Shown piece by piece: positions 9,507 to 20,911 of a DNA stretch of 34,710 nucleotides; the first letter of the stretch is position 1; each line of letters opens with the position of its first letter. The DNA comes from a virus. The stretch lies in the IMG/VR virus record IMGVR_UViG_3300021347_000014, positions 1-34,710 of that record. The stretch is one strand, 5' to 3'. The position numbers and the translations under genes were made by a program. A model generated the notes under the pieces. It worked only from the letters and a program-made list of their open reading frames with translations, searched no databases and had not been told where the DNA came from.

Positions 9507-10658
9507 ATGAAAAAAGATAAAAAAGACTTAGGTAATAACTATTTTAAATCAGGTTGGCAACCATCAGCAGAGTTTGATGAAGCTACTGGTTTAGGAGAAA
9601 TAACACATATAGGGCAAGACCCTAACTACAAATCTAAATTTGACACCATCTTAAAAGACTGGGGCTTTGATCCAGAACATTATGAGATAGATGGCAAAGT
9701 CAAAGCATCATCCTGGAACACACAACTTAAAGGTGGAGATGTTGAAACCTTTTATGCGTTCAAAGGAGTGGTCAGAAGGCGACATCCTGCTCGTGATGAA
9801 TGGTATGACAAGCTACTTAAAGAAGTATCAAAGAAGAAACCATTAAAGAAAAAGAAAATTAAGAGTGATTTAGCATACATCTTTACACTAAGTGACTGGC
9901 AACTAGGGAAAGTTGACCTCGGTGTAGAGAAAACGCTTGAGAGATACGACAAGGCACTTGAGAGAGCAGTAGCAGAGGTTAGGCGACTAGGTAGCGTAGA
10001 TGAAATTTATTTGCTTTCTATGGGCGATTTAACCGAAGGTTGCTACGGATTTTATGATTCTCAACCCCATAATGTATCTTTAAATCTATCTCAACAGTAT
10101 CACTTAGCAAGAAAGCTGATAATGAAAACTGTTGATACATTTCTACCCTATGCAAACAAGATTGTACTGTCTGGTGTACCTGCTAATCACGGAGAAATGG
10201 CTAGATCAGGCAAAGGACAGGTCGTTACATCACGATTAGACAACTCTGACACTATGCACTTACAGATATGCCAAGAGATTATGGAACAGAACCCACGATA
10301 TGACAAAGTAAGTGTGTCCATACCAGAGGGATTCCATCATACATTGGACATCAAAAATGTGAAGGTTGGGTGGACTCACGGACATATGCACGCTGGTGGC
10401 CAGGGACCAGAGGGAAAGATAATGAAGTGGTGGCAAGGACAAATGTTTGGTGACTTTCCTGTTGGAGATGCAGAGATTCTTATTACAGGACACTTTCATC
10501 ACCCTCGTATGATGCAGCAAGGTAACAGAACTTGGTTTCAATGCCCATCTATTGATGCAAGTATAGACTTTACTGCACGAACTGGTATGTGGAGTAAGCC
10601 TGGAGTGTTAACCTTTACTATTGATAAAGATGGTTGGGATAATTATAAGATAGTTTAA
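9507..10658 (+). CDS. Calcineurin-like metallophosphoesterase
   Basis: A 383-residue protein with the ordered metal-binding motifs of this superfamily: LSDWQLGK (D130, Q132 in place of the usual DxH), MGDLTEG (G173-D174), PANHGE (N227-H228), THGHMHA (H291, H293) and TGHFHHP (H329, H331). Members are two-metal phosphatases or nucleases related to Mre11/SbcD and MPPED enzymes. Similar full-length proteins occur in actinobacterial phages without proven substrates. The first 115 residues form a basic N-terminal region (VVRRRHPARDEWYD and a KKKPLKKKK tract) that may bind nucleic acid. It lies between the lysis genes and the convergent leftward block. Confidence 0.85.
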   Translation: MKKDKKDLGNNYFKSGWQPSAEFDEATGLGEITHIGQDPNYKSKFDTILKDWGFDPEHYEIDGKVKASSWNTQLKGGDVETFYAFKGVVRRRHPARDEWYDKLLKEVSKKKPLKKKKIKSDLAYIFTLSDWQLGKVDLGVEKTLERYDKALERAVAEVRRLGSVDEIYLLSMGDLTEGCYGFYDSQPHNVSLNLSQQYHLARKLIMKTVDTFLPYANKIVLSGVPANHGEMARSGKGQVVTSRLDNSDTMHLQICQEIMEQNPRYDKVSVSIPEGFHHTLDIKNVKVGWTHGHMHAGGQGPEGKIMKWWQGQMFGDFPVGDAEILITGHFHHPRMMQQGNRTWFQCPSIDASIDFTARTGMWSKPGVLTFTIDKDGWDNYKIV

Positions 10659-10764
10659 GTAGACAATTTTTTGGTTTCTTTAAAATTATATTAACATAAT
10701 ATTTACCATCAGAAATTACTTGATGCTTGTAACAAATATTATAATTTTTTGTTCTTTTACTCAT
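10618..10764 (-). CDS. Small hypothetical protein (48 aa) after the SET gene
   Basis: An ATG at 10764 overlaps the stop of the SET-domain gene as ATGA. It opens a 48-residue frame: MSKRTKNYNICYKHQVIS, GKYYVNIILKKPKN and a short tail ending HLYQ. Its last 41 bases are antisense to the 3' end of the metallophosphoesterase gene, so the two transcription units collide here. The coupling and a plausible protein body (basic start, beta-like middle) support it; the tail may be fortuitous. Function unknown. Confidence 0.45.
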   Translation of the reverse strand: MSKRTKNYNICYKHQVISDGKYYVNIILKKPKNCLLKLSYNYPNHLYQ

Positions 10765-11063
10765 ACACTATACATACTGTACTTAACAGTAAGCTCTGAT
10801 CCTGCCTCTATATCTTCTAATGTATATAGATAGCGTGTCACTTTACCCTGTATCTCACAGTTAGGTCTATCACTATGATTAATAAATCCACCGAGTGGTG
10901 TTCGTAGTAAGTTATCAGGTTCTCCATACCATTTAGCGTGTGTCATTCCTATAACTTCGTAAGCTGGTATATCTTTAATTGCAAACAAACCCAACCCTTC
11001 TATCTTGCTTGGTTGAATAGTAAGATAGTTAGGTAACGGTCTGTACTTATTCTTCTTCTTCAA
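10761..11063 (-). CDS. Minimal SET-domain protein (putative lysine methyltransferase)
   Basis: A 100-residue protein with the SET signature in order: IEGLGLFAIKDI (residues 21-32, the GxGLFA strand that contacts S-adenosylmethionine), GGFINHSDRPNC (58-69, the NHSxxPN knot) and ELTVKYSMY (90-98, ELxxxY with the catalytic Tyr). There are no pre-SET or post-SET cysteines, so the domain is near minimal size. SET enzymes methylate protein lysines; the substrate here is unknown. No ATG is available at the N-terminus: the frame begins with TTG at 11063 directly after an in-frame stop, with GAGG upstream. It overlaps the end of the 36-residue gene before it. Confidence 0.75.
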   Translation of the reverse strand: MKKKNKYRPLPNYLTIQPSKIEGLGLFAIKDIPAYEVIGMTHAKWYGEPDNLLRTPLGGFINHSDRPNCEIQGKVTRYLYTLEDIEAGSELTVKYSMYSV

Positions 11064-11157
11064 TTACTTCTACCTCTGTAGGTATATGTAGTGGTGCATC
11101 TTCAATCTCAATGTCTTTAAACTCTCCACTATTTGAAACAATTATTTTTATTTTCAT
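11047..11157 (-). CDS. Small acidic protein (36 aa)
   Basis: An ATG at 11157 overlaps the preceding gene's stop as ATGA. It opens MKIKIIVSNSGEFKDIEIED, then APLHIPTEVEVIEEEE. The tail of four Glu resembles the VEEEE end of its upstream neighbour. It is preceded by a purine-rich GAAGAAGAAGA. Function unknown; the coupling is the main evidence. Confidence 0.5.
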   Translation of the reverse strand: MKIKIIVSNSGEFKDIEIEDAPLHIPTEVEVIEEEE

Positions 11158-11339
11158 TCTTCTTCTTCAACAGTTGTAAGTATCTGTATGTTAGGAAGAA
11201 TTGCTAGTAGTTGTTGTTGTCCATTAGTTAACAATATGCTTTTACCCATAAAGAATGGAACACCTTTCTCATTTTTTCTGTTTAGTAACTCTGCAATCAA
11301 CATACCTTCTGTTGCTTTGCTTAACATTGTGTCTATCAT
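11154..11339 (-). CDS. Hypothetical protein (61 aa)
   Basis: A 61-residue protein: MIDTMLSKATEGMLIAELLN, GVPFFMGKSILLTNGQQQL, then LAILPNIQILTTVEEEE. It has a predicted helical first half and a mixed second half with no recognised motif. It overlaps the nuclease-like gene upstream and the small acidic gene downstream, both as ATGA. AAAGGAGATATT before the ATG is a strong ribosome site. Confidence 0.6.
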   Translation of the reverse strand: MIDTMLSKATEGMLIAELLNRKNEKGVPFFMGKSILLTNGQQQLLAILPNIQILTTVEEEE

Positions 11340-11743
11340 AATATCTCCTTTGTATGTACTTTAGCATCTGCTTCAAACAGATACCCTACTTCTTTACTTA
11401 TCATATGATTGTTGTCAAACTCTGTAGTGGAAGGCATATCTCTAAGCTCCCATTTGAAATCATATTCAGCTGCAATCATTCTATTAATGTTCCAAGTCAT
11501 AACCTTACCGTTGCATTCAGTAAGATAAATAAAAGACTTATTCTCCTCAATAGCTTTGATAATATTAGAATCAAATTTCTTCTTCTCTATTATCCAACTG
11601 TCATATGTCTTATCTCTTGACTTAATCTCTACAATGTATGTGTCATTCATTGCATCATAAGAACAGAATGGATCTTCTGTTTCTTGTAACTTATCCATAT
11701 TTGGATAAAGTTCATTTAGTCTATTTATAATTTGTGTTTGCAT
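11336..11743 (-). CDS. PD-(D/E)XK nuclease-like protein
   Basis: A 135-residue protein whose first half fits the PD-(D/E)XK nuclease core: SYDAMNDTYIVEIKSRDKTY supplies D30 and E39-x-K41, followed by WIIEKKKFDSNI, where E53 and K55 suit the next helix, then a beta strand (KSFIYLTECNGKVMTWNI). The spacing between D30 and the ExK is short but usual for the fold. Such proteins act in phage recombination, repair or DNA degradation. Its position two genes after the annealing protein supports a recombination role. Assigned by motif only. Confidence 0.5.
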   Translation of the reverse strand: MQTQIINRLNELYPNMDKLQETEDPFCSYDAMNDTYIVEIKSRDKTYDSWIIEKKKFDSNIIKAIEENKSFIYLTECNGKVMTWNINRMIAAEYDFKWELRDMPSTTEFDNNHMISKEVGYLFEADAKVHTKEIL

Positions 11744-11843
11744 ATTCCATTACCTTTCTACATTCTTCGCAATAACCATTTACTATCTTGCTTGGTTCAC
11801 CGAACAAGTCAAGCTCACCTATATTACAACTTAAACATTTCAA
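11721..11843 (-). CDS. Zinc-ribbon microprotein (40 aa)
   Basis: A TTG at 11843 overlaps the preceding stop as TTGA, with GAGGTG about 10 bases upstream. The frame reads (M)KCLSCNIGELDLF ... NGYCEECRKVMEYANTNYK. Two CxxC knuckles (KCLSC and YCEEC) spaced 19 residues apart form a compact zinc ribbon. Its 3' end overlaps the start of the nuclease-like gene by 23 bases. The non-ATG start and small size keep confidence moderate, but the paired knuckles make it convincing. Confidence 0.6.
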   Translation of the reverse strand: MKCLSCNIGELDLFGEPSKIVNGYCEECRKVMEYANTNYK

Positions 11844-12145
11844 AATAGTTCCACCTCATCTTCCTTATGTTTGGCTTGTATATCTACTGGCTCTAGTAAA
11901 GCGTGACATACTTTCCATTCCCAAGTAAACGGATTCTTTTCATCAGTCATCTTATACCTATAACCGCAGTAAAGATTGCCTTCCATATCTGTATATTTAA
12001 TCTCGTTCTGTTTGCAATAAAATGGTGCTTTGCATTTAGTATCTGGTGGTGCAGGTACATCAAAGTTATAATCAGGAAATCTTTTTTGCAACCTAGCTTT
12101 AAGTTTCTCTATGTTTATAGATTCCCCTGCTCGTTCTAAATCCAT
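11840..12145 (-). CDS. Hypothetical protein with cysteines (101 aa)
   Basis: A 101-residue protein: an acidic helical N-terminus (MDLERAGESINIEKLKARLQ), DYNFDVPAPPDTKCKAPFYC, GNLYCGYRYKMTD and WEWKVCHALLEP. Four cysteines could bind one metal ion. Its start lies inside the last codons of the annealing-protein gene (10-base overlap), so the two are coupled. It may work with the annealing protein. No family recognised. Confidence 0.6.
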   Translation of the reverse strand: MDLERAGESINIEKLKARLQKRFPDYNFDVPAPPDTKCKAPFYCKQNEIKYTDMEGNLYCGYRYKMTDEKNPFTWEWKVCHALLEPVDIQAKHKEDEVELF

Positions 12146-13071
12146 TCGCTTGGTATTGATTCGTTACCTGACCAAGCAGCCCAACCACAGCCACTACCAT
12201 AAGGTGCTTTCTGACAAGCAAAGTCTGGTATCTTAGAGAACTTTGGATCAGATTTCTTATCTCTGTTATCTACAACGCTACCTTTATCAGTACAACTAGG
12301 GCATACTTTGTTCTCATCAGTTGGAGGTCCAGTATAGGTAACCTTTGCACCTAAAATTTCCTCTGCCTCTGTTGTGTCTGGTAACTTATTTTCATTAGCA
12401 TTAAAGACTTCATCTTTATATATTTCTATTTGTGATTCATCCCATTCATTAATATCTTTTGGAAATCCTTTAGACACTACATCATCATAGACTTTACGCT
12501 TTAGCTTATCTCTTTTAGCTTTGTCTTTGATAGTTGCATCCATAAACTTTGCTAACTCTTGCTTATTATTAGGATTATCAGCTACATCTTTAGCGAAGTC
12601 TTGTTTAGCTTTAGCTAAGTTATCCTCTTTTTCTATGACTTGATCTTTAACAGTACCTGTCTTTTGAATTGGTTGTGGTGCAGAGTAATGTTCTTCTTCT
12701 GTCACGCCACCATTCCAGAGTTGGTCTAAACCTAGTCCAAATCTCATAGCACAACGCTTGATACCATCTGATACTGCAAGTTTAAGTAGTTCGCTTTCAG
12801 TTAGATTACGCTTGATAGCGTGTACATCTACATCTCCTACATCTTCTTTGATACCTAGTCCAGGGATTTCTAACCTACACTTTGCACCTACAATAGCGTT
12901 GTCTTTATCTCTCAACACTTCGTATGTGAAGTTATAGTCTGGTGCTACATCAACTAATCTCTTAGTGATAATGCCGTGACTTATGTAATCTCCAAACTTA
13001 CCTTGTGGTGCTTTGTTAATTACATTCTTTGGGAAGTCTTTAATCAACTTCTTCTGTGTTTCTTTATTCAT
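12136..13071 (-). CDS. Rad52-like single-strand annealing protein with C-terminal zinc ribbon
   Basis: A 311-residue protein. The N-terminal 120 residues match Rad52/22-type phage annealing proteins: YISHGIITKRLVDVAPDYNF, a strand ending GAKCRLEIPGLG, and the helix SDGIKRCAMRFGLGLDQLWN (101-120). A charged linker of about 130 residues follows, then a zinc ribbon with C257-x2-C260 and C286/C295 (VCPSC ... FACQKAPYGSGCGWAAW). It should anneal complementary single strands during phage recombination and replication. It has its own promoter-like sequence and a strong ribosome site (TAGGAGATAAATAATG) and heads the downstream genes. The zinc-ribbon extension is typical of actinobacterial phage versions. 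Confidence 0.8.
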   Translation of the reverse strand: MNKETQKKLIKDFPKNVINKAPQGKFGDYISHGIITKRLVDVAPDYNFTYEVLRDKDNAIVGAKCRLEIPGLGIKEDVGDVDVHAIKRNLTESELLKLAVSDGIKRCAMRFGLGLDQLWNGGVTEEEHYSAPQPIQKTGTVKDQVIEKEDNLAKAKQDFAKDVADNPNNKQELAKFMDATIKDKAKRDKLKRKVYDDVVSKGFPKDINEWDESQIEIYKDEVFNANENKLPDTTEAEEILGAKVTYTGPPTDENKVCPSCTDKGSVVDNRDKKSDPKFSKIPDFACQKAPYGSGCGWAAWSGNESIPSEWI

Positions 13072-13093
13072 TATTTATCTCCTATTTTCCTAC

Positions 13094-13122
13094 ATTATAG
13101 TTACTAAGTATGACAATATCTA
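13094..13122 (-). promoter_or_regulatory. Leftward promoter before the annealing-protein gene
   Basis: On the minus strand TAGATA (13117-13122) and TATAAT (13094-13099) are 17 bases apart. The -10 is perfect and the -35 matches four of six consensus bases. The -10 is followed by GTAGG, giving the same 11-mer TATAATGTAGG found at the promoter at 14811. Initiation would leave a short leader containing the ribosome site of the gene at 13071. Confidence 0.55.
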
Positions 13123-13178
13123 CTAGACTGAAATTGATAAACAGATTATTCAATGTTTATTTCCTTTCTGAAGTAGAT

Positions 13179-13198
13179 AACCTCTAGCAATAGAGGTT
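13179..13198. terminator. GCAA-tetraloop hairpin after the HTH gene
   Basis: AACCTCTA and TAGAGGTT form a perfect 8-bp stem around GCAA (plus strand). It lies two bases beyond the stop of the leftward HTH gene. Neither side has a clean T-tract; the plus-strand side continues GTTTACTT. The tip TAGCAATA is the same as in the rightward terminator at 17383. It may be a weak terminator, processing site or read-through block. Confidence 0.35.
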
Positions 13199-13200
13199 GT

Positions 13201-13449
13201 TTACTTAACAATCCTATGTATCATTTGTCTTGTTAAATTAGTAGTCGTTGCTAATGACTGTGCTGATACGCCTACATTGTATAAACCTTTAATAGCTTTA
13301 TCTCTCAACTCTTTGTATGTCTTAACTAAATGTTCTGCTTGATCTAGCTCATCTAAACTCTCTTGTAGCACTACATAAAGAGTTTGTAACTGTTGTTCAT
13401 CTACAACTTTCTTTATGTTCTCTTGTGCCTGTTCTAATAAGTCGTCCAT
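13201..13449 (-). CDS. Small HTH DNA-binding protein
   Basis: An 82-residue protein: a helical first half (LEQAQENIKKVVDEQQLQ ... AEHLVKTYKELRDKAI) and a C-terminal helix-turn-helix, GVSAQSLATTTNLTRQMIHRIVK, of the sigma-region-4-like kind ('VSAxxLAxxTxLTRQxIHRIV') common in actinobacterial and phage regulators. It could bind DNA as a regulator of this block. AGAAAGGATATGTAATG precedes it, and the ATG overlaps the preceding stop by one base. Confidence 0.7.
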   Translation of the reverse strand: MDDLLEQAQENIKKVVDEQQLQTLYVVLQESLDELDQAEHLVKTYKELRDKAIKGLYNVGVSAQSLATTTNLTRQMIHRIVK

Positions 13450-13568
13450 TACATATCCTTTCTAATCTGGTCTAAAAATTCTTGTGTTAATCCCTGTGAT
13501 TTCCGTTGTTGTTCTTCTAACCGTACTCGTTTATAGAATTTGTATCTATATATTAATTTACTAAACAT
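13449..13568 (-). CDS. Small basic protein (39 aa)
   Basis: An ATG at 13568 with CAGAAAGGAATT before it opens MFSKLIYRYKFYKRVRLEEQ, then QRKSQGLTQEFLDQIRKDM, ending TAA that overlaps the next ATG. Strongly basic and Gln-rich with amphipathic helices. The ribosome site is of the same type as the next gene's. Function unknown. Confidence 0.6.
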   Translation of the reverse strand: MFSKLIYRYKFYKRVRLEEQQRKSQGLTQEFLDQIRKDM

Positions 13569-13594
13569 AATTCCTTTCTGTTATTTAGTTGTGT

Positions 13595-13783
13595 TTATAT
13601 TGTACTGTCTGCTCTTTTAAGAGTGACAATGAATGATCCCATTTGACTTTCTTGGCTGACTACTTCTAATCTATTTCGCCTACAATATCTTTCTACTTCG
13701 CTTGTGCTAGGAAAGATACGAAAGCTACGATTAAAAGCTACGACTATTTGCCTACAATCTCGTGGCATATCAATTTTTATCAT
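13595..13783 (-). CDS. Hypothetical protein (62 aa)
   Basis: A 62-residue protein: MIKIDMPRDCRQIVVAFNRS, then FPSTSEVERYCRRNRLEVV, then QMGSFIVTLKRADSTI. A beta-alpha-beta pattern with two CR(Q/R) sites; not a recognisable zinc finger. GAAAGG lies before the ATG. It stands 26 bases before the next gene, less tightly packed than its neighbours. Confidence 0.55.
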   Translation of the reverse strand: MIKIDMPRDCRQIVVAFNRSFRIFPSTSEVERYCRRNRLEVVSQESQMGSFIVTLKRADSTI

Positions 13784-13850
13784 TAATAACCTTTCATTCT
13801 AGTATAAACAGAAGTTTACAATAGTGTGTAAACTTATTTGACTTTCTTAT

Positions 13851-13997
13851 TTAGATGCATTTTGCGTTACAACAATCACTTAAATAAATAAAGTTGTAAT
13901 ACTCATCTTCTAATTGGTAATAGTCTGTATCTTGCCTACAACTACTACATACTTTTGAATATATTTTTGTTCCATTAACAATATCTACTATAAACAT
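13851..13997 (-). CDS. Zinc-finger microprotein (48 aa)
   Basis: An ATG at 13997 overlaps the preceding stop (TAATG). The frame reads MFIVDIVNGTKIYSKVCSSC, RQDTDYYQLEDEYYNFIYL and SDCCNAKCI. CSSC and DCCNAKC can bind a zinc ion, with an acidic Tyr-rich strand between them, a layout seen in many small phage proteins. The ribosome site is GAGGAGAGGGAG. Function unknown. Confidence 0.6.
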   Translation of the reverse strand: MFIVDIVNGTKIYSKVCSSCRQDTDYYQLEDEYYNFIYLSDCCNAKCI

Positions 13998-14215
13998 TAT
14001 TCTCCCTCTCCTCTGAACATTTCCTCAAAACATTCTGGGTGTACCCCAGTCATCAGCTGTTCTCTTTCTTCTTTGCTATGATCTGGAAATATATCCTGGA
14101 TTAATCTTCTAAGGTGTCGTGGTGTTTGAGTAAACTCTCTATAAGCTCTTCTATCTACCATAACTGTACCTGTTTGCCTACAATGTATACATTCTTTAGT
14201 TGTTACTGCGAACAT
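13997..14215 (-). CDS. Conserved actinophage-type CxxC protein (72 aa)
   Basis: A 72-residue protein with ECIHCRQTGTVMVDRRAY (C9, C12), then RRLIQDIFPDHSKEEREQLM, then TGVHPECFEEMF. This pattern (CxxC knuckle, basic Tyr segment, IQDxFPxxSxxxREQLxTG, CF motif) is a well-known family of unknown function in phages of Actinobacteria. It is one of the better clues to host type. Preceded by TAGGAGGAAGAATAATG, an excellent ribosome site. Confidence 0.8.
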   Translation of the reverse strand: MFAVTTKECIHCRQTGTVMVDRRAYREFTQTPRHLRRLIQDIFPDHSKEEREQLMTGVHPECFEEMFRGEGE

Positions 14216-14226
14216 TATTCTTCCTC

Positions 14227-14367
14227 CTATATTTTTTGTAATCTTCTATCACAATTCTTTTTATTGCAATAACTTCTGCCTACTGTTCGTTCTTTATGTG
14301 TTCTATAATCAAATTCTGTCATACGCATACAACCACAATTCCAATCTATTTGATTTACATAAGACAT
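14227..14367 (-). CDS. Cysteine-rich microprotein (46 aa)
   Basis: An ATG at 14367 with GGAGGAAGAATA before it opens a 46-residue frame: MSYVNQIDWNCGCMRMTEFD, then RSYCNKKNCDRRLQKI. CGC plus YCNKKNC gives four cysteines for one metal site, and the whole protein is basic. Its ATG overlaps the preceding stop. Function unknown. Confidence 0.55.
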   Translation of the reverse strand: MSYVNQIDWNCGCMRMTEFDYRTHKERTVGRSYCNKKNCDRRLQKI

Positions 14368-14489
14368 TATTCTTCCTCCAAACAACTTCTAATATCCTTA
14401 TCATCTAATTCGTGTATATATTCTATTGCTTGTTCCATATCAATAGCTGAAAATGATACAAACATTGTATATAATTTTGGTTTAGCCAT
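14367..14489 (-). CDS. Small acidic helical protein (40 aa)
   Basis: An ATG at 14489 opens MAKPKLYTMFVSFSAIDMEQ, then AIEYIHELDDKDIRSCLEEE. The end DDKDIRSCLEEE resembles DDKEVKRILEQEF at the end of the 46-residue gene at 15362, so the two may be related. Start and stop overlap neighbours as TAATG. The start context lies in a 24-base exact repeat shared with the next gene upstream. Confidence 0.5.
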   Translation of the reverse strand: MAKPKLYTMFVSFSAIDMEQAIEYIHELDDKDIRSCLEEE

Positions 14490-14632
14490 TACTTCCCTAC
14501 ACTTTCTTTTGGACAATCTTCGTATGGAAATTGTTCTTGTTCTTCACATAAACAAAAATTAAACTGCAATATTTGTTCTGTATGTGTTAAGTTAGCCATA
14601 TCTTGATAGCTATGTGATTTTTCTTGATTCAT
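14489..14632 (-). CDS. Small acidic protein (47 aa)
   Basis: An ATG at 14632 opens MNQEKSHSYQDMANLTHTEQ, then FNFCLCEEQEQFPYEDCPKE and SVGK. The last codons (ESVGK, stop) and the overlapping ATG of the following gene lie in a 24-base sequence repeated exactly at the end of the gene upstream. FCLC and a third Cys could bind metal. Function unknown. Confidence 0.5.
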   Translation of the reverse strand: MNQEKSHSYQDMANLTHTEQILQFNFCLCEEQEQFPYEDCPKESVGK

Positions 14633-14778
14633 TACTTCCCTACACTTTCTTTTAATTTACGATCAGCTATGTTGTTATCTTTTTGTAAACAATACCAACA
14701 CAATATCCATAAAATAAAATACGGCTTGTATTCATACCAATCGTTAGTTTGTTTTCCACAATCGTTACATATTTTCAT
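14632..14778 (-). CDS. First gene of leftward operon: double-CxxC microprotein (48 aa)
   Basis: An ATG at 14778 with AGGAAGG before it opens MKICNDCGKQTNDWYEYKPY, FILWILCWYCLQK, and a basic tail ending ESVGK. Two CxxC knuckles (CNDC, CWYC) flank an aromatic, hydrophobic segment. It is the first gene after the consensus-like promoter at 14811-14838, so probably strongly and early expressed. Function unknown. Confidence 0.6.
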   Translation of the reverse strand: MKICNDCGKQTNDWYEYKPYFILWILCWYCLQKDNNIADRKLKESVGK

Positions 14779-14810
14779 TGATTAACCTTCCTGTTTATTA
14801 ACCTACCTAC

Positions 14811-14838
14811 ATTATACCTACATTGTATTTGTTGTCAA
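14811..14838 (-). promoter_or_regulatory. Strong leftward sigma70-type promoter
   Basis: On the minus strand a perfect TTGACA (14833-14838) and a perfect TATAAT (14811-14816) are 16 bases apart. The -10 is followed by GTAGGTAGG. Transcription would start near 14804 and read the run of small leftward genes. A second TTGACA lies at 14862-14867, without a clear -10 of its own. Confidence 0.75.
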
Positions 14839-14963
14839 ATGATGTTTACTATACGACACATTGTCAATAGGTGTAGTATAGTTATTAACCTACATTTTCT
14901 ATGTGCCTACAATATCGCTACATAGTCGGTATGTGCCTACACTTTAGTTATATTGATCCATAG

Positions 14964-14995
14964 AAAAAACCCTAGTTAAAAGGGGATAACTAGGG
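14964..14995 (-). terminator. Rho-independent terminator of the second leftward operon
   Basis: On the minus strand a perfect 9-bp stem, CCCTAGTTA / TAACTAGGG, with an eight-base loop is followed immediately by six T residues. It lies 28 bases after the stop of the gene at 15023 and upstream of the promoter at 14811, insulating the two leftward operons. Confidence 0.8.
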
Positions 14996-15022
14996 CTTAA
15001 TCTGGTGTTGGTTACTTTTTAA

Positions 15023-15163
15023 TTACTTCCAGACTTCTGGAAATAGTCTTTCATATTCTCTTATCATTCTGTAATATCTTACCTCGTTTAATGTGCCTAC
15101 AATAGCCACTCGTAACACGATTATAAAACCGATTGTTATTATTAACCCTTCTATACTAAACAT
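15023..15163 (-). CDS. Single-span membrane microprotein (46 aa)
   Basis: An ATG at 15163 directly follows the preceding stop, with CAGGAGGTTAATTAA before it. The frame begins MFSIEGLIITIGFIIVLRVA, a membrane span, then a charged helix (NEVRYYRMIREYERLFPE) ending VWK. Probably inserts in the inner membrane with its tail in the cytoplasm. Last gene before the terminator at 14964. Function unknown; membrane early proteins of phages often alter the host envelope or exclude other phages. Confidence 0.6.
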   Translation of the reverse strand: MFSIEGLIITIGFIIVLRVAIVGTLNEVRYYRMIREYERLFPEVWK

Positions 15164-15346
15164 TTAATTAACCTCCTGATTAAATAACTTGTGCATATAA
15201 TCTGTATCAACTATATAAACATTGTTACAATTCCAACATTTAATATTATCTAAATCATCTTTATTTTGTTCATAAATATAATTGTTAATAATGCCGTCGT
15301 GTTCACAATAATCACATTCAACAAAATCAATTACTTTTAATTTCAT
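15164..15346 (-). CDS. Zinc-ribbon protein (60 aa)
   Basis: A 60-residue protein: MKLKVIDFVECDYCEHDGII, an acidic Asn-rich linker, then IKCWNCNNVYIVDTDYMHKL. CDYC and CWNC form a standard zinc ribbon. The ribosome site is AAGGGAGGTTAGAAAGATG, repeated almost exactly before neighbouring genes. Function unknown. Confidence 0.65.
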   Translation of the reverse strand: MKLKVIDFVECDYCEHDGIINNYIYEQNKDDLDNIKCWNCNNVYIVDTDYMHKLFNQEVN

Positions 15347-15361
15347 CTTTCTAACCTCCCT

Positions 15362-15502
15362 TTAAAATTCTTGCTCTAATATTCTTTTAACTTCTTTATC
15401 ATCTCTACAAGTTAATGCCTCTTGTATTAATTCACTCTCTAACGCTATTGCTGGATGAATTAAGTACTTATCACATAGTATTGCAAATTGGTTGCTTGTC
15501 AT
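15362..15502 (-). CDS. Small helical protein (46 aa)
   Basis: An ATG at 15502 with AAAGGGAGGTAGAAAG before it opens MTSNQFAILCDKYLIHPAIA, then LESELIQEALTCRDDKEVKR and ILEQEF. All-helical in appearance. The end resembles the 40-residue protein at 14367. The strong ribosome site is the main support. Function unknown. Confidence 0.6.
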   Translation of the reverse strand: MTSNQFAILCDKYLIHPAIALESELIQEALTCRDDKEVKRILEQEF

Positions 15503-15516
15503 CTTTCTACCTCCCT

Positions 15517-15699
15517 TTATACTTCCACTAATTCATAATTTTTATATTCGTATTCTTTATCTTGATTATTTAATTCAATAATAAGCATACGAGTTAAAAA
15601 AGTATCTTGAAAAGTTTTATTACTTATCTTTAATCTTTTCCATTCGTCGTTACTATTTTTCTTTCTACTATCTACGAAGTAGTAATATTCTTTTTCCAT
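15517..15699 (-). CDS. Small charged protein (60 aa)
   Basis: A 60-residue protein, MEKEYYYFVDSRKKNSNDEW, KRLKISNKTFQDTFLTRMLI, then a Tyr/Glu-rich end. It could form a small alpha/beta domain; no motif recognised. ACTAAAGGGAGGTTAATTA before the ATG is the same start-associated sequence as its neighbours. It stands after a 77-base gap holding two imperfect inverted repeats. Confidence 0.6.
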   Translation of the reverse strand: MEKEYYYFVDSRKKNSNDEWKRLKISNKTFQDTFLTRMLIIELNNQDKEYEYKNYELVEV

Positions 15700-15776
15700 T
15701 AATTAACCTCCCTTTAGTGTCTAACCTTTAAACACTATAAGCACCCTACAACAAAGGAAATAGAGTGCCTAACTGT

Positions 15777-16130
15777 TTAATTTGTTGGCTCAAATCCTAA
15801 AATGATATTAGCCATAAATTCCCAATAGTTATTAATAACCCTAGACTGTAATTCATCACTAGGATTATTGTCTATACTTCCCATTTCTATAGCTAACGGC
15901 ACAAGCTCATTATTCCAATAAGGTATATCAAGAGCTAAACCTTGTAACCATTCTTTCATTGCTTTATATTTTCCATAGCGTTCAATATTCCAATCGTACT
16001 CACTATAAAAACGATTAAATAAATAATCTATTTTTTCTTGATCACTTGCTGATTCATTACCCTCTATATAAATTCTATCTAATATATATCTTTTATAATT
16101 AGCTTTATATTTTGTATGGTGTAGTTTCAT
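15777..16130 (-). CDS. Conserved phage protein of unknown function (EWLQGLALDIPYWN type)
   Basis: A 117-residue, mostly helical protein with IERYGKYKAMKEWLQGLALD, IPYWNNELVPLAIEMGS and a C-terminal NNYWEFMANIILGF. Proteins with the same arrangement (ERxGxxxAxxEWLQGL, IPYxNxE, NYWxFxA) occur in many phages of Gram-positive and other bacteria, without known function. Its ATG overlaps the preceding gene's stop. GGGGAAG is the ribosome site. Confidence 0.65.
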   Translation of the reverse strand: MKLHHTKYKANYKRYILDRIYIEGNESASDQEKIDYLFNRFYSEYDWNIERYGKYKAMKEWLQGLALDIPYWNNELVPLAIEMGSIDNNPSDELQSRVINNYWEFMANIILGFEPTN

Positions 16131-16495
16131 TACTTCCCCTCTACTATTTCTTTTTCTTGTACTTCTTCTATGTCTATTTCATCCCCGTTAATATCAAAAA
16201 GATAACCCCAATCATCCCCTATATACCATTCGGATATGCCGTTATAATAATTATAAACTTCATACAATTCGTAATTATTATCTTCATTAATCCATTGTAA
16301 AAATTCTTCATAAGTTACAGAATCTTCAATATGATTAATAGGTAGGTTAAAAACTATACCTAATCTTTTATAGTTTTTAGTTAGACAATCTTCGTTACAG
16401 AAATAATATTCATTGAATAAATAAATACCTTTACTCATCCCTTTATTACATCCGTCACATTTACGAAGATAATATTTTTTTTCTTTAGTTTTCAT
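16130..16495 (-). CDS. Zinc-finger protein with acidic C-terminal domain (121 aa)
   Basis: A 121-residue protein. The N-terminal KCDGCNKGMSKGIYLFNEYY and FCNEDCLTKNY form a treble-clef-like zinc finger, CxxC...CxxxC. It continues with a very acidic, Tyr/Trp-rich C-terminus (EDNNYELYEVYNYYNG, DDWGYLFDINGDE). This pairing (a 'CxxCxKGMxxG...YFCxxxCL' finger plus an acidic tail) is recurrent in phages. The acidic tail may mimic DNA or bind a basic partner; that is speculation. First gene of the leftward operon that ends at the terminator at 14964. CATAAAGGGGAAGTAATG is the start context. Confidence 0.65.
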   Translation of the reverse strand: MKTKEKKYYLRKCDGCNKGMSKGIYLFNEYYFCNEDCLTKNYKRLGIVFNLPINHIEDSVTYEEFLQWINEDNNYELYEVYNYYNGISEWYIGDDWGYLFDINGDEIDIEEVQEKEIVEGK

Positions 16496-17382
16496 TACTT
16501 CCCCTTTATGTTTGTAACCTTTATGTTACTAGATACTTATTATATGTATAGTATTTCTTTTAATTTCTTTTTAGTTGGTTATTGTTGTGAAGTGTAGAGG
16601 AAGTTATAAGAGTAATCTTATTATCGTCATCTATATTAAAACACCGTATACCCATTATTAAAAAAAATATATCCTATATTTTCCATTATGTCTTATTTTG
16701 TAGTATTTCTTAGATAAAACCCTATAAACACTAAGGAAAAAAAGTTGACCTATAACATATAATATGTTGCGTTGAGTAGATATAAATGGATATGTCAATA
16801 TGAAACCCCAACATCTATGATGTTAGACACCAGTAAATCCTTGGAAACTTTTACTAAGAAATATGCACTGTCTTGGTAGATAAACTACAGTTAGTAATAC
16901 TACTAATACAGTAATAAGTGTTATCTCTGATCTGTTTGAGTGGTTGTTTACACTCTTTGCATTTCATACTGTTTATTCTAGTTGTAGTTTCTTTATTGTG
17001 GTTCTAACCCTGTGTCACTCCCTCCCAAAACCAGAATGAACTAAAATTAGTAACAAATAAATATGTGAAGTAATAGGCTATTACCCTAGTTAAGATGGTC
17101 CAGCTAGTCCACGTTCCCTTTAGTGTTGATCCAACATTCCTTTCCTTAGAGCTAGAGAAATGTTTTGTTTGTTGTTGTCATAGTATCACAACTCAACTAA
17201 TATGCAAGTACCTAGAAAGACTAGGTGCAGCATATGAGGATATGCTTCAATTTATAATAAGAAAGAAAGGCTTTTCATTAACATTTAAGTATGTGGTGTA
17301 CTTGAAAGTATTGTTTAAGATGAGATGTTTTTGTGGATTGTTATATTTTTCATTACAGTAAATGGACAGACTGTACGTGTAC
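16496..17382. other. Gene-poor control region with many inverted repeats; possible structured RNA
   Basis: This 0.9 kb stretch separates leftward and rightward genes and has no convincing gene. Perfect short inverted repeats are dense: 16810-16824 (6 bp, loop TAT), 16832-16855 (6 bp), 16891-16906 (6 bp, loop ATAC), 16938-16955 (5 bp), 17040-17051, 17070-17084 (7 bp, one-base centre), 17210-17226 (ACCTAG, loop AAAGA) and 17229-17246 (AGCATAT, loop GAGG). The last two stand two bases apart. A rightward terminator follows at 17383, implying a rightward transcript through here. A frame at 17095-17361 is open but poorly supported. The region may hold a noncoding RNA, operators or an origin. Confidence 0.45.
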
Positions 17383-17412
17383 AAAGCCCTGTAGCAATAC
17401 AGGGTTTTGTTT
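17383..17412 (+). terminator. Rightward rho-independent terminator with GCAA tetraloop
   Basis: CCCTGTA (17387-17393) and TACAGGG (17398-17404) form a perfect 7-bp stem around a GCAA loop, followed by TTTTGTTTATT. The stem is extended by a G-T and A-T pairs. It lies just before a strong rightward promoter, so it closes a transcript from the region to its left. Confidence 0.8.
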
Positions 17413-17413
17413 A

Positions 17414-17442
17414 TTGACTTACTTTCTAATCTGGTTTATAAT
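17414..17442 (+). promoter_or_regulatory. Strong rightward sigma70-type promoter
   Basis: TTGACT (17414-17419) and a perfect TATAAT (17437-17442) are separated by 17 bases. It sits immediately after a terminator and upstream of the rightward genes beginning at 17523. The leader contains a CCCTAG / CTAGGG hairpin near 17490. Confidence 0.75.
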
Positions 17443-17522
17443 AAAGTATCAAAAACACTTCCCTGTTTGTGATTAACCCAAAATCCCTAGCTCCTAGTCT
17501 AGGGTATGGTATAGTAATTTTT

Positions 17523-17645
17523 ATGAGTGATGATATACCTGTAGAAGATTGCGACCAGTGCCTGAATCCTTTTTGGGCAGATCAGCTTACTGATGGCTTA
17601 TGCCCTACTTGTGGTGTAAACGATTTAGAGAGTTTCTTTGAATAA
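17523..17645 (+). CDS. Zinc-ribbon microprotein (40 aa)
   Basis: An ATG at 17523 opens MSDDIPVEDCDQCLNPFWAD, then GLCPTCGVNDLESFFE. CDQC and CPTC form a compact zinc ribbon in an acidic protein. It is the first gene after the promoter at 17414. There is no clear Shine-Dalgarno, which is unusual beside its neighbours. Function unknown; small zinc ribbons of this kind often bind nucleic acid or transcription components. Confidence 0.6.
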   Translation: MSDDIPVEDCDQCLNPFWADQLTDGLCPTCGVNDLESFFE

Positions 17646-17709
17646 AAAAATTTTTTTTACCCCACATTTGATTTTGTAAGTTATTAAAGTTATTGAAAGA
17701 AAGGATATT

Positions 17710-18018
17710 ATGACAGAAATATATGAAGTACAAGCCTGGGGAAGCAAAGAATTTATAAACATTAGTAATGGTGATTTAGAAGAAGATATTAAAGAAGCAA
17801 TAGTTAAAGTTGGTTTTGAGCCACACAAAGGACATAGCAATAATTATTATATAAAAGCTAATAAAGGTGGAATTGAAATAGAATTTGAAATGGTAGAAGG
17901 TGGACATAAAACAACAGCTACCTATGATATTTGTTACAATTCATTAGCTAAAAATATATTGACACAAGGTAAAAACATAGAGAGGACACACATTGAAAAT
18001 AACACAAGAAACAATTAA
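17710..18018 (+). CDS. Hypothetical protein (102 aa)
   Basis: A 102-residue acidic protein: MTEIYEVQAWGSKEFINISN, DLEEDIKEAIVKVGFEPHKG, then a beta-like GGIEIEFEMVEGGHKTTATY and an Asn/Thr-rich end. AAAGAAAGGATATT before the ATG is a strong ribosome site of the same type as the leftward gene at 13449. No family recognised. Confidence 0.6.
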   Translation: MTEIYEVQAWGSKEFINISNGDLEEDIKEAIVKVGFEPHKGHSNNYYIKANKGGIEIEFEMVEGGHKTTATYDICYNSLAKNILTQGKNIERTHIENNTRNN

Positions 18019-18355
18019 TTCTTTACTTAAAGAAAGAATTATTTATGACAATTGTTATTCAAAAATAGAAAATAGATACACTGAAGATAATTTTATAACT
18101 TTAAGTGATTACGATAAAATAGATAAAGAATTTGAAGAAGAGTACGAAATGGTAGAACCTGTACAACACTTTTGTTCACAGAATAATTTAACTGGGGAAG
18201 TAACATTTCTTTTAGAAAAAGTAATTACTTTGGAAAAAATTATAAAATATAAAAACAAATACAATAAAGCATACATTGCAGATGTTAGATATAGATTAAA
18301 ATACTATAAAGAAAAATTAAACAAATTTACTGTAAAGGTTCCTGTAAATCAGTAG
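17993..18355 (+). CDS. Hypothetical protein with TTG start (120 aa)
   Basis: A 120-residue, charged, helical protein: KITQETINSLLKERIIYDNC, a central acidic stretch (DKIDKEFEEEYEMVEP) and a basic C-terminal helix (RYRLKYYKEKLNKFTVKV). The start is TTG at 17993, chosen because AGAGAGGA precedes it at good spacing and no ATG is available nearby. It overlaps the gene before it by 26 bases. Its 3' end overlaps the end of the convergent gene at 18327. Function unknown. Confidence 0.55.
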   Translation: MKITQETINSLLKERIIYDNCYSKIENRYTEDNFITLSDYDKIDKEFEEEYEMVEPVQHFCSQNNLTGEVTFLLEKVITLEKIIKYKNKYNKAYIADVRYRLKYYKEKLNKFTVKVPVNQ

Positions 18356-18533
18356 GAGCTTGGCGACCTTTAATTCTAGGATAAGAGCGAGGTTTGTGGT
18401 TATTACAGTACTTAAATTTATTGTATTTTGAAATAACTGTCTGGCATTCTTTGTGAACGCAAACTCTTCCACTACTATATGTAGTAGAGGGTTTATGATT
18501 AGGATATTGTTTTCCTTTAATATAATCACTCAT
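18327..18533 (-). CDS. Actinophage-type small zinc protein (C-x4-C ... YCNNHKPRSYPR)
   Basis: A 68-residue basic protein with RVCVHKECQTVISKYNKFKY, then CNNHKPRSYPRIKGRQ. The order C-x4-C, SxYNxxxxC, xxH, YPR is a family widespread in actinobacteria and their phages, with Cys/His metal ligands and no firm function. It is the only leftward gene in a long rightward stretch. The ATG at 18533 has no ribosome site, but TATACT lies 9 bases upstream on the same strand, so it may be transcribed as a leaderless mRNA. A rival frame on the same strand (18317-18529) lacks any such motif. Confidence 0.65.
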   Translation of the reverse strand: MSDYIKGKQYPNHKPSTTYSSGRVCVHKECQTVISKYNKFKYCNNHKPRSYPRIKGRQAPTDLQEPLQ

Positions 18534-18558
18534 ACAACATATAGTATAGGAGAGAAAA

Positions 18559-18624
18559 ATGCCAAAAAAAGGTTACAACCCTAAAAAAGGGATGAAAAAA
18601 AATAAAGTTAAGAAGAGGAAGTAA
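18559..18624 (+). CDS. Very basic micropeptide (21 aa)
   Basis: An ATG at 18559 preceded by TAGGAGAGAAAA opens MPKKGYNPKKGMKKNKVKKR plus a final Lys; 11 of 21 residues are Lys or Arg. The stop overlaps the ATG of the next gene as TAATG. It may bind DNA or RNA during packaging or assembly. Good ribosome site and coupling support it despite the size. Confidence 0.55.
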   Translation: MPKKGYNPKKGMKKNKVKKRK

Positions 18625-18881
18625 TGGCTGAATGGCGAGGAATGAAAGTGAAGTTAAATTCACCTAGCCCTATTCGTAAGGGTGAGCCTGGCTATGGTCG
18701 TAAGAAGTCTAAAGTCTTTGTAATGAAAAATGGGAAAGTCAAGAAAATAATGTTTGGCGACCCTAATATGAAGATTAGGAAAAATAATCCAGAGGCTAGA
18801 GCTTCGTTTCGTGCTAGACACAAATGCAGCACAGCTAAGGATAAAACAACTGCACGATATTGGAGTTGCAGAGCCTGGTAA
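18624..18881 (+). CDS. Conserved basic phage protein (SFRARHKCSTAKDKTTARYWSC family)
   Basis: An 85-residue basic protein: a Gly/Lys-rich first half (RKGEPGYGRKKSKVFVMKNG), then ARASFRARHKCSTAKDKTTA and RYWSCRAW. The C-terminal motif (SFRARHxCxxAKDKTTARYWSCxxW) is highly conserved in a family of small phage proteins near packaging genes. Function is not established, though virion association is often assumed. It is coupled upstream by TAATG and lies two genes before the terminase. Confidence 0.75.
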   Translation: MAEWRGMKVKLNSPSPIRKGEPGYGRKKSKVFVMKNGKVKKIMFGDPNMKIRKNNPEARASFRARHKCSTAKDKTTARYWSCRAW

Positions 18882-18890
18882 GGAGAGAGA

Positions 18891-19010
18891 ATGGCTAAAG
18901 TAAGTTGGATGTATGGTGGTAAACGCTACTATGGAACTCTGATTAGGGAAACTAAAACACATAAATTTGCTAGAACAGAAAACGGCAAAGTCAAAAAAAT
19001 AAAGAAATAA
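18891..19010 (+). CDS. Small basic protein before terminase (39 aa)
   Basis: AAGGAGAGAGA directly precedes an ATG at 18891. The frame, MAKVSWMYGGKRYYGTLIRE, then TKTHKFARTENGKVKKIKK, ends in a TAA that overlaps the terminase ATG. NGKVKKI echoes NGKVKKIMF in the gene before it, hinting at a shared segment. A strong ribosome site and coupling to terminase support it. Function unknown. Confidence 0.65.
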   Translation: MAKVSWMYGGKRYYGTLIRETKTHKFARTENGKVKKIKK

Positions 19011-20911
19011 TGGCAGAGCGTAGGCAATGTAGCAATACAGGATGTGAGAAAAAATTTACTATTAAAAATGGTAACAGTCGTTACTGTTCTACTCAATGTT
19101 CTAATAGAGCTAAATACAAACGAGCTAAAGAGCGTGAGCGTTTAGAGGCTATTAATAAACTAGATATAAACGAAACAACATTAAATCGTGGTGAACACTA
19201 CAAAGACTATGTAGAAAATTATGCAAGTCTAGTAGAGCAGAAAACAATTACACAATCTGATGTAGCACGACTTATAGGCGTAGCTAAAGATATAGTAAAT
19301 AAAATGCACAATGCTTATCGCATAGATAAAACTAATGCAGAACAACGAGAAGATTGGTCAACCCCACAAGCAGCTATTGATTCACTACAGAAATTTGAAG
19401 ATTTTAGAGATAGGTACTTTCAGACAGAAACAGGAGATAAGTATGAAACAGCAGACTTTCATCAACGCTGGATTCAATCTATCTTAGATGCTATTGATAC
19501 TGGTGGAGAACAGATGATCCTTAGCCCACCACGACACGGCAAGACTGACTTGTTAACACACTTTGCTATATGGCAGATATGTAAAAATCCTAATGTCAGA
19601 ATTATGTGGGTTGGTGGTAACGAAGAGATTGCAAAAAATGCTGTAGGTGCTGTAGTTGACCACTTAGAACATAATGAAAAACTTATAGAGGATTTCTGTG
19701 GACCAGGAGCTACCTTTAAACCTAAGAATAGATCAGGTAAGTCCTGGACATCTGGACAGTTTACTACTGCTACAAGAACAGTTACTGGTATTAAATCACC
19801 TACTATGGTTGCTGTTGGTAAAGGTGGTAAGATTCTCTCTCGTGACTGTGACTTGATTATTGCAGATGACATTGAGGACCACGGAACAACTGTACAGCCG
19901 AGTGCTAGAGAGCAGACTAGGCAATGGTGGACTACCACACTATCTAGTCGTAAAGAGGAACATACAGCTATTGTTGTTATTGGATCAAGACAGCATCCTG
20001 AAGATTTATATAACTTTCTTTTAGAAAACCCAGAGATGACCACAATTGTAGAAGAGGCACATAGTACAGAGTGTGTACTGCCAGAAAACGAAATTGAGTT
20101 ACATTCTGACTGTATGTTATGGGCAGGAAAGCGTAGTTACAAATGGTTATTGTCAAGATTACACGCAGCTGAAACCACAGGTGGTAAAGCTATCTTTGAG
20201 ATGGTGTATCTTAACAAAGCATTTGTAGATGGTATAACAATGTTTGATGTAGAAGAGATAGATGTTTGTAGAGATGTAAATAGAGTTGTAGGGCAGGTAC
20301 CTGCTGGAACACATTTGATAGCAGGACTTGACCCAGCTTCTACAGGTTATCAAGCTTGTTTCTTATGGGCTATAGATTCTGATTCAGGAAAACTTTATAT
20401 GGTTGATATAGAAAATCAAGAAGGTGGTGGTGTCATACAAGCTAAACAAACCATAAAGAAATGGCACGAGATGTATGGACTTGCACACTGGGTTATTGAA
20501 GAGAATGGTTTTCAGAGAGCAATACGACAAGACAAAGATTTAAAAGATTACTGTTCACGAGTAGGTATTTACTTAGAAGGACATCAGACACAAAAAAATA
20601 AATTTGACCCTATCTTTGGCGTAGGAAGTATGAGAGAATTATTTAAGGAACAATTAATAAGTTTGCCTTATGGTAGTGCAGAAAGCGAAACTAAGAGTAA
20701 TATATATCGTAGGCAACTAATTTATTTTTCTACTGGTGCTAGTAAGCAGTCTGGTAGAAATAATAAGTCAGATGTTGTTATGGCTTCTTGGTTTCCAATG
20801 AAAGTTATAAGAAGAATGCAAAAAGAAAGATTGGCTGAAGTAGGATTAGATTATGAACCAAGTTTTGGAGAATGGGATATAACTGATATGAACGAAACGC
20901 CTTGGAGTTAG
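19010..20911 (+). CDS. terL: Terminase large subunit with N-terminal zinc finger and HTH-like region
   Basis: A 633-residue packaging motor. ATPase: ILSPPRHGKTDLL (Walker A, residues 170-182), DLIIADDIED (Walker B, 281-290). RNase H-like nuclease: AGLDPASTG with D441, an acidic pair at 497-498 (WVIEENG), and D588 in KSDVVMASW. The N-terminus is unusual: CSNTGCEKKF and SRYCSTQCSN (C7, C12, C26, C30) form a zinc finger, followed by a basic helix and a helix-turn-helix-like segment (QSDVARLIGVAKDIVNKMH, about 85-103). No separate small-subunit gene is seen, so these extra domains may supply DNA recognition. It is coupled by TAATG to the gene before and stands two bases before the portal. Confidence 0.92.
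   Translation: MAERRQCSNTGCEKKFTIKNGNSRYCSTQCSNRAKYKRAKERERLEAINKLDINETTLNRGEHYKDYVENYASLVEQKTITQSDVARLIGVAKDIVNKMHNAYRIDKTNAEQREDWSTPQAAIDSLQKFEDFRDRYFQTETGDKYETADFHQRWIQSILDAIDTGGEQMILSPPRHGKTDLLTHFAIWQICKNPNVRIMWVGGNEEIAKNAVGAVVDHLEHNEKLIEDFCGPGATFKPKNRSGKSWTSGQFTTATRTVTGIKSPTMVAVGKGGKILSRDCDLIIADDIEDHGTTVQPSAREQTRQWWTTTLSSRKEEHTAIVVIGSRQHPEDLYNFLLENPEMTTIVEEAHSTECVLPENEIELHSDCMLWAGKRSYKWLLSRLHAAETTGGKAIFEMVYLNKAFVDGITMFDVEEIDVCRDVNRVVGQVPAGTHLIAGLDPASTGYQACFLWAIDSDSGKLYMVDIENQEGGGVIQAKQTIKKWHEMYGLAHWVIEENGFQRAIRQDKDLKDYCSRVGIYLEGHQTQKNKFDPIFGVGSMRELFKEQLISLPYGSAESETKSNIYRRQLIYFSTGASKQSGRNNKSDVVMASWFPMKVIRRMQKERLAEVGLDYEPSFGEWDITDMNETPWS

Follow-up and report, generated by a model that had tools for sequence, protein, structure and literature searches.

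Small early genes of T4-like phages are reportedly shuffled by means of PeSL cassettes (Arbiol 2010 and Comeau 2014, as cited in PMC4503421), which are said to be intergenic repeats of a promoter and a stem-loop. A comparable arrangement was analysed here in an uncultured marine phage represented by the IMG/VR virus record IMGVR_UViG_3300021347_000014 (34,710 bases, 34.7% GC; this whole stretch is referred to as the window). The early region of the window contains an array of micro-genes, with one of about 15-25 short recurring sequences, termed connectors, in front of each gene.

Start-associated sequences (SAS) have been described in two groups of actinobacterial phages. The SAS of the cluster K mycobacteriophages is a single asymmetric 13-bp consensus (GGGATAGGAGCCC) that is present in 11-19 copies, mostly before non-structural genes (Pope et al. 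2011, PMC3203893). About half of the copies have inverted repeats just upstream; these extended elements (ESAS) are 17-bp imperfect inverted repeats located directly upstream of the SAS (PMC3203893). The second group, the cluster EF Microbacterium phages, contains the SAS consensus GGGAAAGGACCCC and an upstream element (PMC7302621). Short boundary or linker sequences have also been proposed for phage mosaicism but, according to PMC3029335, they cannot be recognised at most boundaries, which has hampered the old argument between mosaicism via such sequences and random joining followed by selection.

Connectors at the starts of the micro-genes

The connectors are shared beyond what the Shine-Dalgarno (SD) sequence and base composition account for, their similarity ends at the start codon, and whole-gene junctions lie inside them. 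A connector comprises 12-20 bases that hold the SD sequence, the spacer and the start, and in many cases the preceding gene ends within it, so that its final codons and stop are included. Some connectors widen into longer leader islands that carry a hairpin, terminator or promoter.

Relatives were collected from IMG/VR, in which more than 80 loci are related to the window by terminase and 20 by the annealing protein described below. Genes were called by a custom script in the fetched relative loci (L numbers) and in the window, families were grouped by blastp, and the 40 bases before the starts were compared in gene pairs from different families. Leader runs of at least 13 nt were found in 7.9 per 1000 pairs of non-homologous early genes, compared with 0.04 in column shuffles (about 200-fold) and 0.73 in late structural genes of the same contigs (about 10-fold below the early genes). 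When the SD cores and their spacing were kept in the shuffles, 445 early pairs shared at least 13 nt against 30 shuffled pairs (15-fold), and runs of 20 nt were shared by 100 early pairs against none.

Linked leaders of non-homologous genes are 95% identical at positions -10 to -1 and 100% identical at the start codon. Past the start, identity is 43-45% from codon 2 and about 33% deeper in the gene; the BLAST families may miss fast-diverged homologues, yet linked genes stay at this nucleotide identity of about 33% past the first codons. For homologues whose upstream genes differ, identity is 93% from the ATG onward, 72% in the ten bases before it (-10 to -1) and about 50% farther upstream, including beyond -20 (226 pairs, 31 families). 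These mirrored drops in identity place the exchange point at the SD/start segment. Almost every connector class is common to several gene families, for example:

Connector class AAAGGGGAAGTAATG: 22 leaders, 18 families
Connector class AAAGGGAGGTTAATTAATG with hairpin leader: 15 leaders, 11 families
Connector class AAAGAAAGTGTAGGTTAATCAATG: 10 leaders, 9 families
Connector class GAATAGAAAGGTAAACAATG: 10 leaders, 8 families

When the upstream stop lies inside the connector, the purine-rich SD sequence doubles as the C-terminal codons of the preceding gene. The usual tails encoded in this way are EEE-stop, EGK-stop and KESVGK-stop, and among the five residues that precede TAATG, glutamate (E) makes up 39%, compared with 8% elsewhere.

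The structural genes of the window are rightward, and the block 10618-16495 is leftward. At least 14 leftward frames of 39-121 residues had been predicted; re-reading of the open reading frames (ORFs) with corrected starts gave 15 micro-genes of 39-121 amino acids between 13201 and 16495:

13201-13449, 13449-13568, 13595-13783, 13851-13997, 13997-14215 (minus strand): micro-genes 1-5, ORFs and gene calls
14227-14367, 14367-14489, 14489-14632, 14632-14778, 15023-15163 (minus strand): micro-genes 6-10, ORFs and gene calls
15164-15346, 15362-15502, 15517-15699, 15777-16130, 16130-16495 (minus strand): micro-genes 11-15, ORFs and gene calls

Homologues were found in relatives for 14 of the 15 genes, and in most cases substitutions are in excess at third codon positions; these 14 genes are thus regarded as real; the gene 14227-14367 is the only one with no homologue in the relatives. 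A pattern scan for relatives of the 16130-16495 protein found none. The genes are less tightly packed than the original prediction had it: the array is interrupted by gaps at 14779-15022, 15700-15776 and 13784-13850, and TAATG overlaps, described as the usual junction, occur at only 6 of the 14 junctions (16130, 14632, 14489, 14367, 13997 and 13449). At the start 14215, the upstream stop does not overlap. TAATG overlap as a speciality of the array was rejected, because it is found at 22% of early genes and 31% of late genes of the phage group.

The near-identical start types that had been named are all present in the window. The types GGAGGAAGAATA-ATG, GTGTAGGGAAGTA-ATG and GGGGAAGTA-ATG are found at 14215 and 14367, at 14489 and 14632, and at 16130 and 16495, respectively, and the type AAAGGGAGGT...ATG at 15346, 15502 and 15699. 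However, GTGTAGGGAAG and GGGGAAG, which had been treated as a single type, are separate, and the AGAAAGGATAT type (13449, 13568 and 17710) is the weakest of those named. The starts 14489 and 14632 sit in a local repeat of 43 nt with 84% identity, so this pair may be a recent duplication. The longest run common to starts of the window is 21 nt (about 8-9 nt in column shuffles), and 7 start pairs have at least 10 nt in common (0.4 in column shuffles). With SD-preserving shuffles, runs of at least 11 nt were observed in 6 pairs against 1.7 (p=0.002) and runs of at least 13 nt in 2 pairs against 0.3 (p=0.025). The connectors and leaders of the window, all on the minus strand, are as follows:

16496-16507: connector AAAGGGGAAGTA before ATG 16495; the gene 16130-16495 is precisely absent in L086
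16131-16141: connector GAGGGGAAGTA before ATG 16130, a repeat of the 16495 connector; encodes ..EGK-stop of the upstream gene
15700-15780: mobile leader island with hairpin TAGTGTTTAAAGGTTAGACACTA (15715-15737) and AAAGGGAGGTTAATTA connector
15503-15518: connector AAAGGGAGGTAGAAAG before ATG 15502
15347-15363: connector AAAGGGAGGTTAGAAAG before ATG 15346; the gene 15164-15346 is absent in L086
15164-15177: connector AGGAGGTTAATTAA before ATG 15163
14779-15022: leader island with intrinsic terminator (14998-14967), repeated TGTAGG(C) sites, promoter, and connector AACAGGAAGGTTAATCA before ATG 14778
14633-14652: connector AAAGAAAGTGTAGGGAAGTA before ATG 14632; the upstream gene ends in it as KESVGK-stop
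14490-14509: connector AAAGAAAGTGTAGGGAAGTA before ATG 14489
14368-14379: connector GGAGGAAGAATA before ATG 14367; encodes EEE-stop; another gene lies behind the same connector in L083
14216-14227: connector GGAGGAAGAATA before ATG 14215; right-hand junction of many insertions in relatives
13998-14014: connector AGAGGAGAGGGAGAATA before ATG 13997; followed by members of at least 8 unrelated gene families across relatives
13784-13850: leader with perfect dyad AAGTTTACACACTATTGTAAACTT (13812-13835); the upstream gene 13851-13997 is precisely absent in L085
13450-13465: weaker AGAAAGGATAT-type start context of 13449

The leader island 15700-15780 precedes unrelated genes in relatives, many of which contain blastn blocks covering 15703-15780. 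The island 14779-15022 carries a perfect consensus sigma70 promoter (TTGACA-16-TATAAT, 14838-14811, minus strand), and this promoter leader fronts different genes in at least 8 relatives (L033, L041, L042, L053, L057, L058, L067 and L097).

Gene gain, loss and swapping at starts

Cassette shuffling of early genes had been suggested from the window alone. The relatives pair one leader with different genes, and one gene with different leaders and neighbours, which shows the shuffling directly. The original observation is largely real, and its reading is supported and largely right. An all-against-all comparison of the arrays gave 52 gene-scale insertions, or 35 when one was kept per inserted gene set, an insertion being a presence/absence difference between relatives with no direction of gain or loss set. 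Whole-gene insertions end at start codons far above chance: the left end falls at a start codon in 28 of the 35 (null 3.0; maximum 9 in 1000 trials), and both ends fall at starts in 16 (null 0.55, maximum 4).

The window holds AGGGGAAGTAATGAAA twice, flanking the gene 16130-16495; in L086, from which this gene is missing, one copy of AGGGGAAGTAATGAAA joins the 16495 leader to the 16130 gene. The junction left by the missing gene 15164-15346 in the same relative has GGAGGTTA as its overlap, and this gene, too, lies between two copies of a start motif that had been named. Connectors that flank an insertion share a median run of 8 nt, compared with 5 nt for other pairs in the same genome (p=2e-6), which supports homology, though the lengths are short. 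Many junctions have an overlap of 13-31 nt in which all three sequences are nearly identical.

Two genes of the window are relevant to a possible mechanism:

12136-13071 (minus strand): Rad52-like single-strand annealing protein (phrog_3290, E 2.6e-12; Pfam Rad52_Rad22 with a score of 25.2 bits, cut-off 20.3)
9507-10658 (plus strand): exonuclease, candidate partner of the annealing protein (phrog_284, E 9e-54)

The gene 12136-13071 passes the curated cut-off for Rad52/Erf-type profiles, and its product is predicted to have annealing activity. Work in E. coli has shown that phage recombinases of the Rad52-like type drive mosaicism where homology is short and diverged (PMC3945230). It is considered likely that the array is an exchange zone for early genes in which the connectors serve as short homologies, and the exchange is probably aided by the neighbouring Rad52-like protein. 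During a mixed infection, the connectors of two phages would anneal, and this annealing may be promoted by the phage-encoded Rad52-like protein and the exonuclease beside the array. A crossover in the connector would rebuild the SD sequence and the start, and usually also the stop of the preceding gene, so that recombinants would be functional at once. The incoming gene would be translated immediately, and selection would keep such recombinants and spread the connectors.

Several points weigh against this explanation. The role of the annealing protein is deduced from gene neighbourhood. At the exchange events, the two connectors are exactly identical over a short run before the ATG (median 8 nt), and a homology-directed mechanism is therefore not proven. 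Selection for translatable junctions would likewise put the survivors at starts. In addition, the relatives are metagenome contigs, the insertion events are not fully independent, and some leaders are shared because one upstream gene stays constant while the genes behind it vary, as seen after 13997-14215.

An alternative is passive mosaicism, in which joins are random and illegitimate, only crossovers at gene borders survive, leaders hitch-hike, and connectors are descendants of a few old leaders with no guiding role. As a full account this is unlikely, but selection on random joins is a serious rival and is probably acting as well. The short identity between flanking connectors agrees with it. 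However, the two connectors at an insertion resemble each other more closely than do random pairs from the same genome, all of which carry an SD sequence; the nearly identical overlaps of 13-31 nt recur at many junctions, and late-gene starts on the same contigs share far less. The connectors could instead be primarily regulatory, as proposed for SAS and ESAS, and act as sites for a translation factor, an RNA or a DNA-binding protein that sets early expression, with shuffling being incidental. Early-gene leaders with gaps of at least 45 nt are indeed enriched in hairpins (minimum free energy -7.0 against -4.7 in shuffled sequences), and intergenic leaders contain terminator-like sites in 18 of 92 distinct gaps (null 0.95) and 4 promoters that match at 11 of 12 positions or better (null 0.7). 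This explanation is nevertheless improbable, as there are many connector classes with a differing non-SD part rather than one conserved 13-mer, and junctions inside connectors are left unexplained; a regulatory role is also compatible with the exchange zone.

Fusion of different phages by assemblers at repeated start sequences is very improbable. The relatives are all metagenome contigs and the junctions are repeats, but connector repeats are mostly shorter than the k-mers usually used in assembly, the genes flanking the junctions are intact, and arrangements recur across samples (L010/L011/L014, L090/L091 and L092/L093/L094). The original prediction had itself named SD sequences plus AT bias as the explanation that would undo it. 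Every class does contain an SD sequence and the AGAAAGGATAT class is weak, but sharing across relatives exceeds both column and SD-preserving shuffles at least 15-fold, and the window alone gives p values of 0.002-0.025 for runs of 11-13 nt; this explanation is hardly credible.

The array cargo of the relatives L098, L084, L082 and L097 includes DNA methyltransferases (C5, MT-A70 and Dam), and the zone may therefore be where these phages renew counter-defence genes. Other early genes of relatives encode SprT-like and other metallopeptidase-like proteins.

The TGTAGGC repeat and the gene-free region

TGTAGGC is the most over-represented 7-mer in the early spans: 112 copies were counted where 6.8 would be expected, in 30 distinct contexts, and the other strand has 2. 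In every relative, the repeat, TGTAGGC(A/G)NA, lies both inside and outside coding sequence and points almost exclusively the way early transcription runs. Within genes, 20 copies were counted against 2.9 in synonymous-codon shuffles. The sites in the window are as follows:

5' ends at 13276, 13684, 13756, 13940, 14182, 14911, 14941 and 15101 (minus strand): eight TGTAGGC sites

TGTAGGC clusters at 14811-14941, between the terminator and the promoter, and shorter TGTAGG sites are spread over 12841-15750. TGTAGG as a general promoter mark (-10 plus discriminator) was rejected, since no -35 signal above that of other TAnnnT sites was found. TGTAGGC is possibly an operator or stoperator-like site. 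The stoperators of cluster A mycobacteriophages are short asymmetric sites that lie in one orientation with respect to transcription, within and between genes (PMC9283540). TGTAGGC is similar in being asymmetric and in one orientation across the early region. It differs in sequence from the stoperators, which are bound by the phage repressor and stop transcription. As a guess, its reader may be encoded by the following gene, which adjoins the annealing-protein gene in nearly all relatives:

13201-13449 (minus strand): protein with a resolvase-type helix-turn-helix; present at 24 loci and thus the most widespread gene of the array

A more far-reaching proposal is that the starts are programmed crossover points: the ribosome-binding sites would be kept in a few standard forms for the phage's own annealing recombinase to exchange single early genes, each crossover would leave a translatable gene, and TGTAGGC would be read by the resolvase-type protein to regulate or guide the region. 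This proposal is possible but doubtful.

Further elements were observed around the array:

About 16500-17510: stretch of roughly 1 kb between the divergent operons in which no genes were called; strong conservation in all relatives, in contrast to the variable neighbouring genes
17222-17247 (approximate): hairpin with apparent covariation by eye, outside the predicted consensus structure
17380-17410 (approximate): terminator-like hairpin with compensatory changes at the plus-strand end of the gene-free region
17414-17442 (plus strand): near-consensus promoter TTGACT-17-TATAAT right after the hairpin, toward the rightward operon, kept in relatives
17522-17645 (plus strand): possible short gene for a 40-amino-acid zinc-ribbon-like protein (CxxC...CxxC); the block is conserved in several relatives
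10761-11063 (minus strand): small SET-domain protein (Pfam PF00856, E 1.4e-11), conserved in relatives

The gene-free stretch is a candidate phage RNA or control region; an Rfam scan of 10500-19100 gave no match.

Comparison with known systems

A near-identity DNA search against isolate phages gave no match for the window. Its large terminase belongs to phrog_38 and has less than 30% identity to the terminases of isolate phages, and an endolysin is also encoded. Relatives of the terminase are placed in metagenome-assembled genomes labelled as three different phyla or classes, and for this reason the phage is assigned to no host; low GC was the only ground for considering an Actinomarinales host.

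A likeness to the start-associated sequences of actinobacterial phages had been suggested, and it holds in kind but not in sequence. As in the cluster K SAS, a conserved sequence at the SD position goes beyond SD needs and is common to different gene families, and cluster EF phages also have conserved motifs at this position. Unlike the cluster K SAS, the connectors form many classes with no single genome-wide consensus, and gene exchange, which is not the role proposed for SAS, is visible at them. The consensus motifs GGGATAGGAGCCC and GGGAAAGGACCCC had only 3-mismatch matches in the window, at chance level and none before an array gene. The early intergenic leaders are enriched in hairpins and can be compared with ESAS, but the sequence and length of the hairpins vary.

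In line with the description of PeSL cassettes, repeats appear to mediate gene shuffling, judging from the comparative evidence. The likeness in structure applies only to the 14779-15022 leader, with its terminator, promoter and start, and to its homologous leaders. Most exchange points are connectors of 12-20 nt around the SD sequence and start that lack a promoter or terminator, and many are intra-operon and overlap the upstream stop. The contig of about 35 kb also has a different terminase and is not T4-like. With both SAS motifs at chance level and a genome that is not T4-like, the connectors belong to neither known system by sequence.

The proposed boundary linkers also involve homologous recombination at short sequences between modules, but the connectors, unlike those linkers, are readable at most gene-scale junctions of the array. 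With a natural set of dozens of genomes from one abundant marine phage group and an adjoining recombinase, the argument over the origin of mosaicism becomes testable, and start-associated sequences gain a concrete second function. By analogy, the connectors resemble SAS and ESAS in position and PeSL cassettes in consequence.

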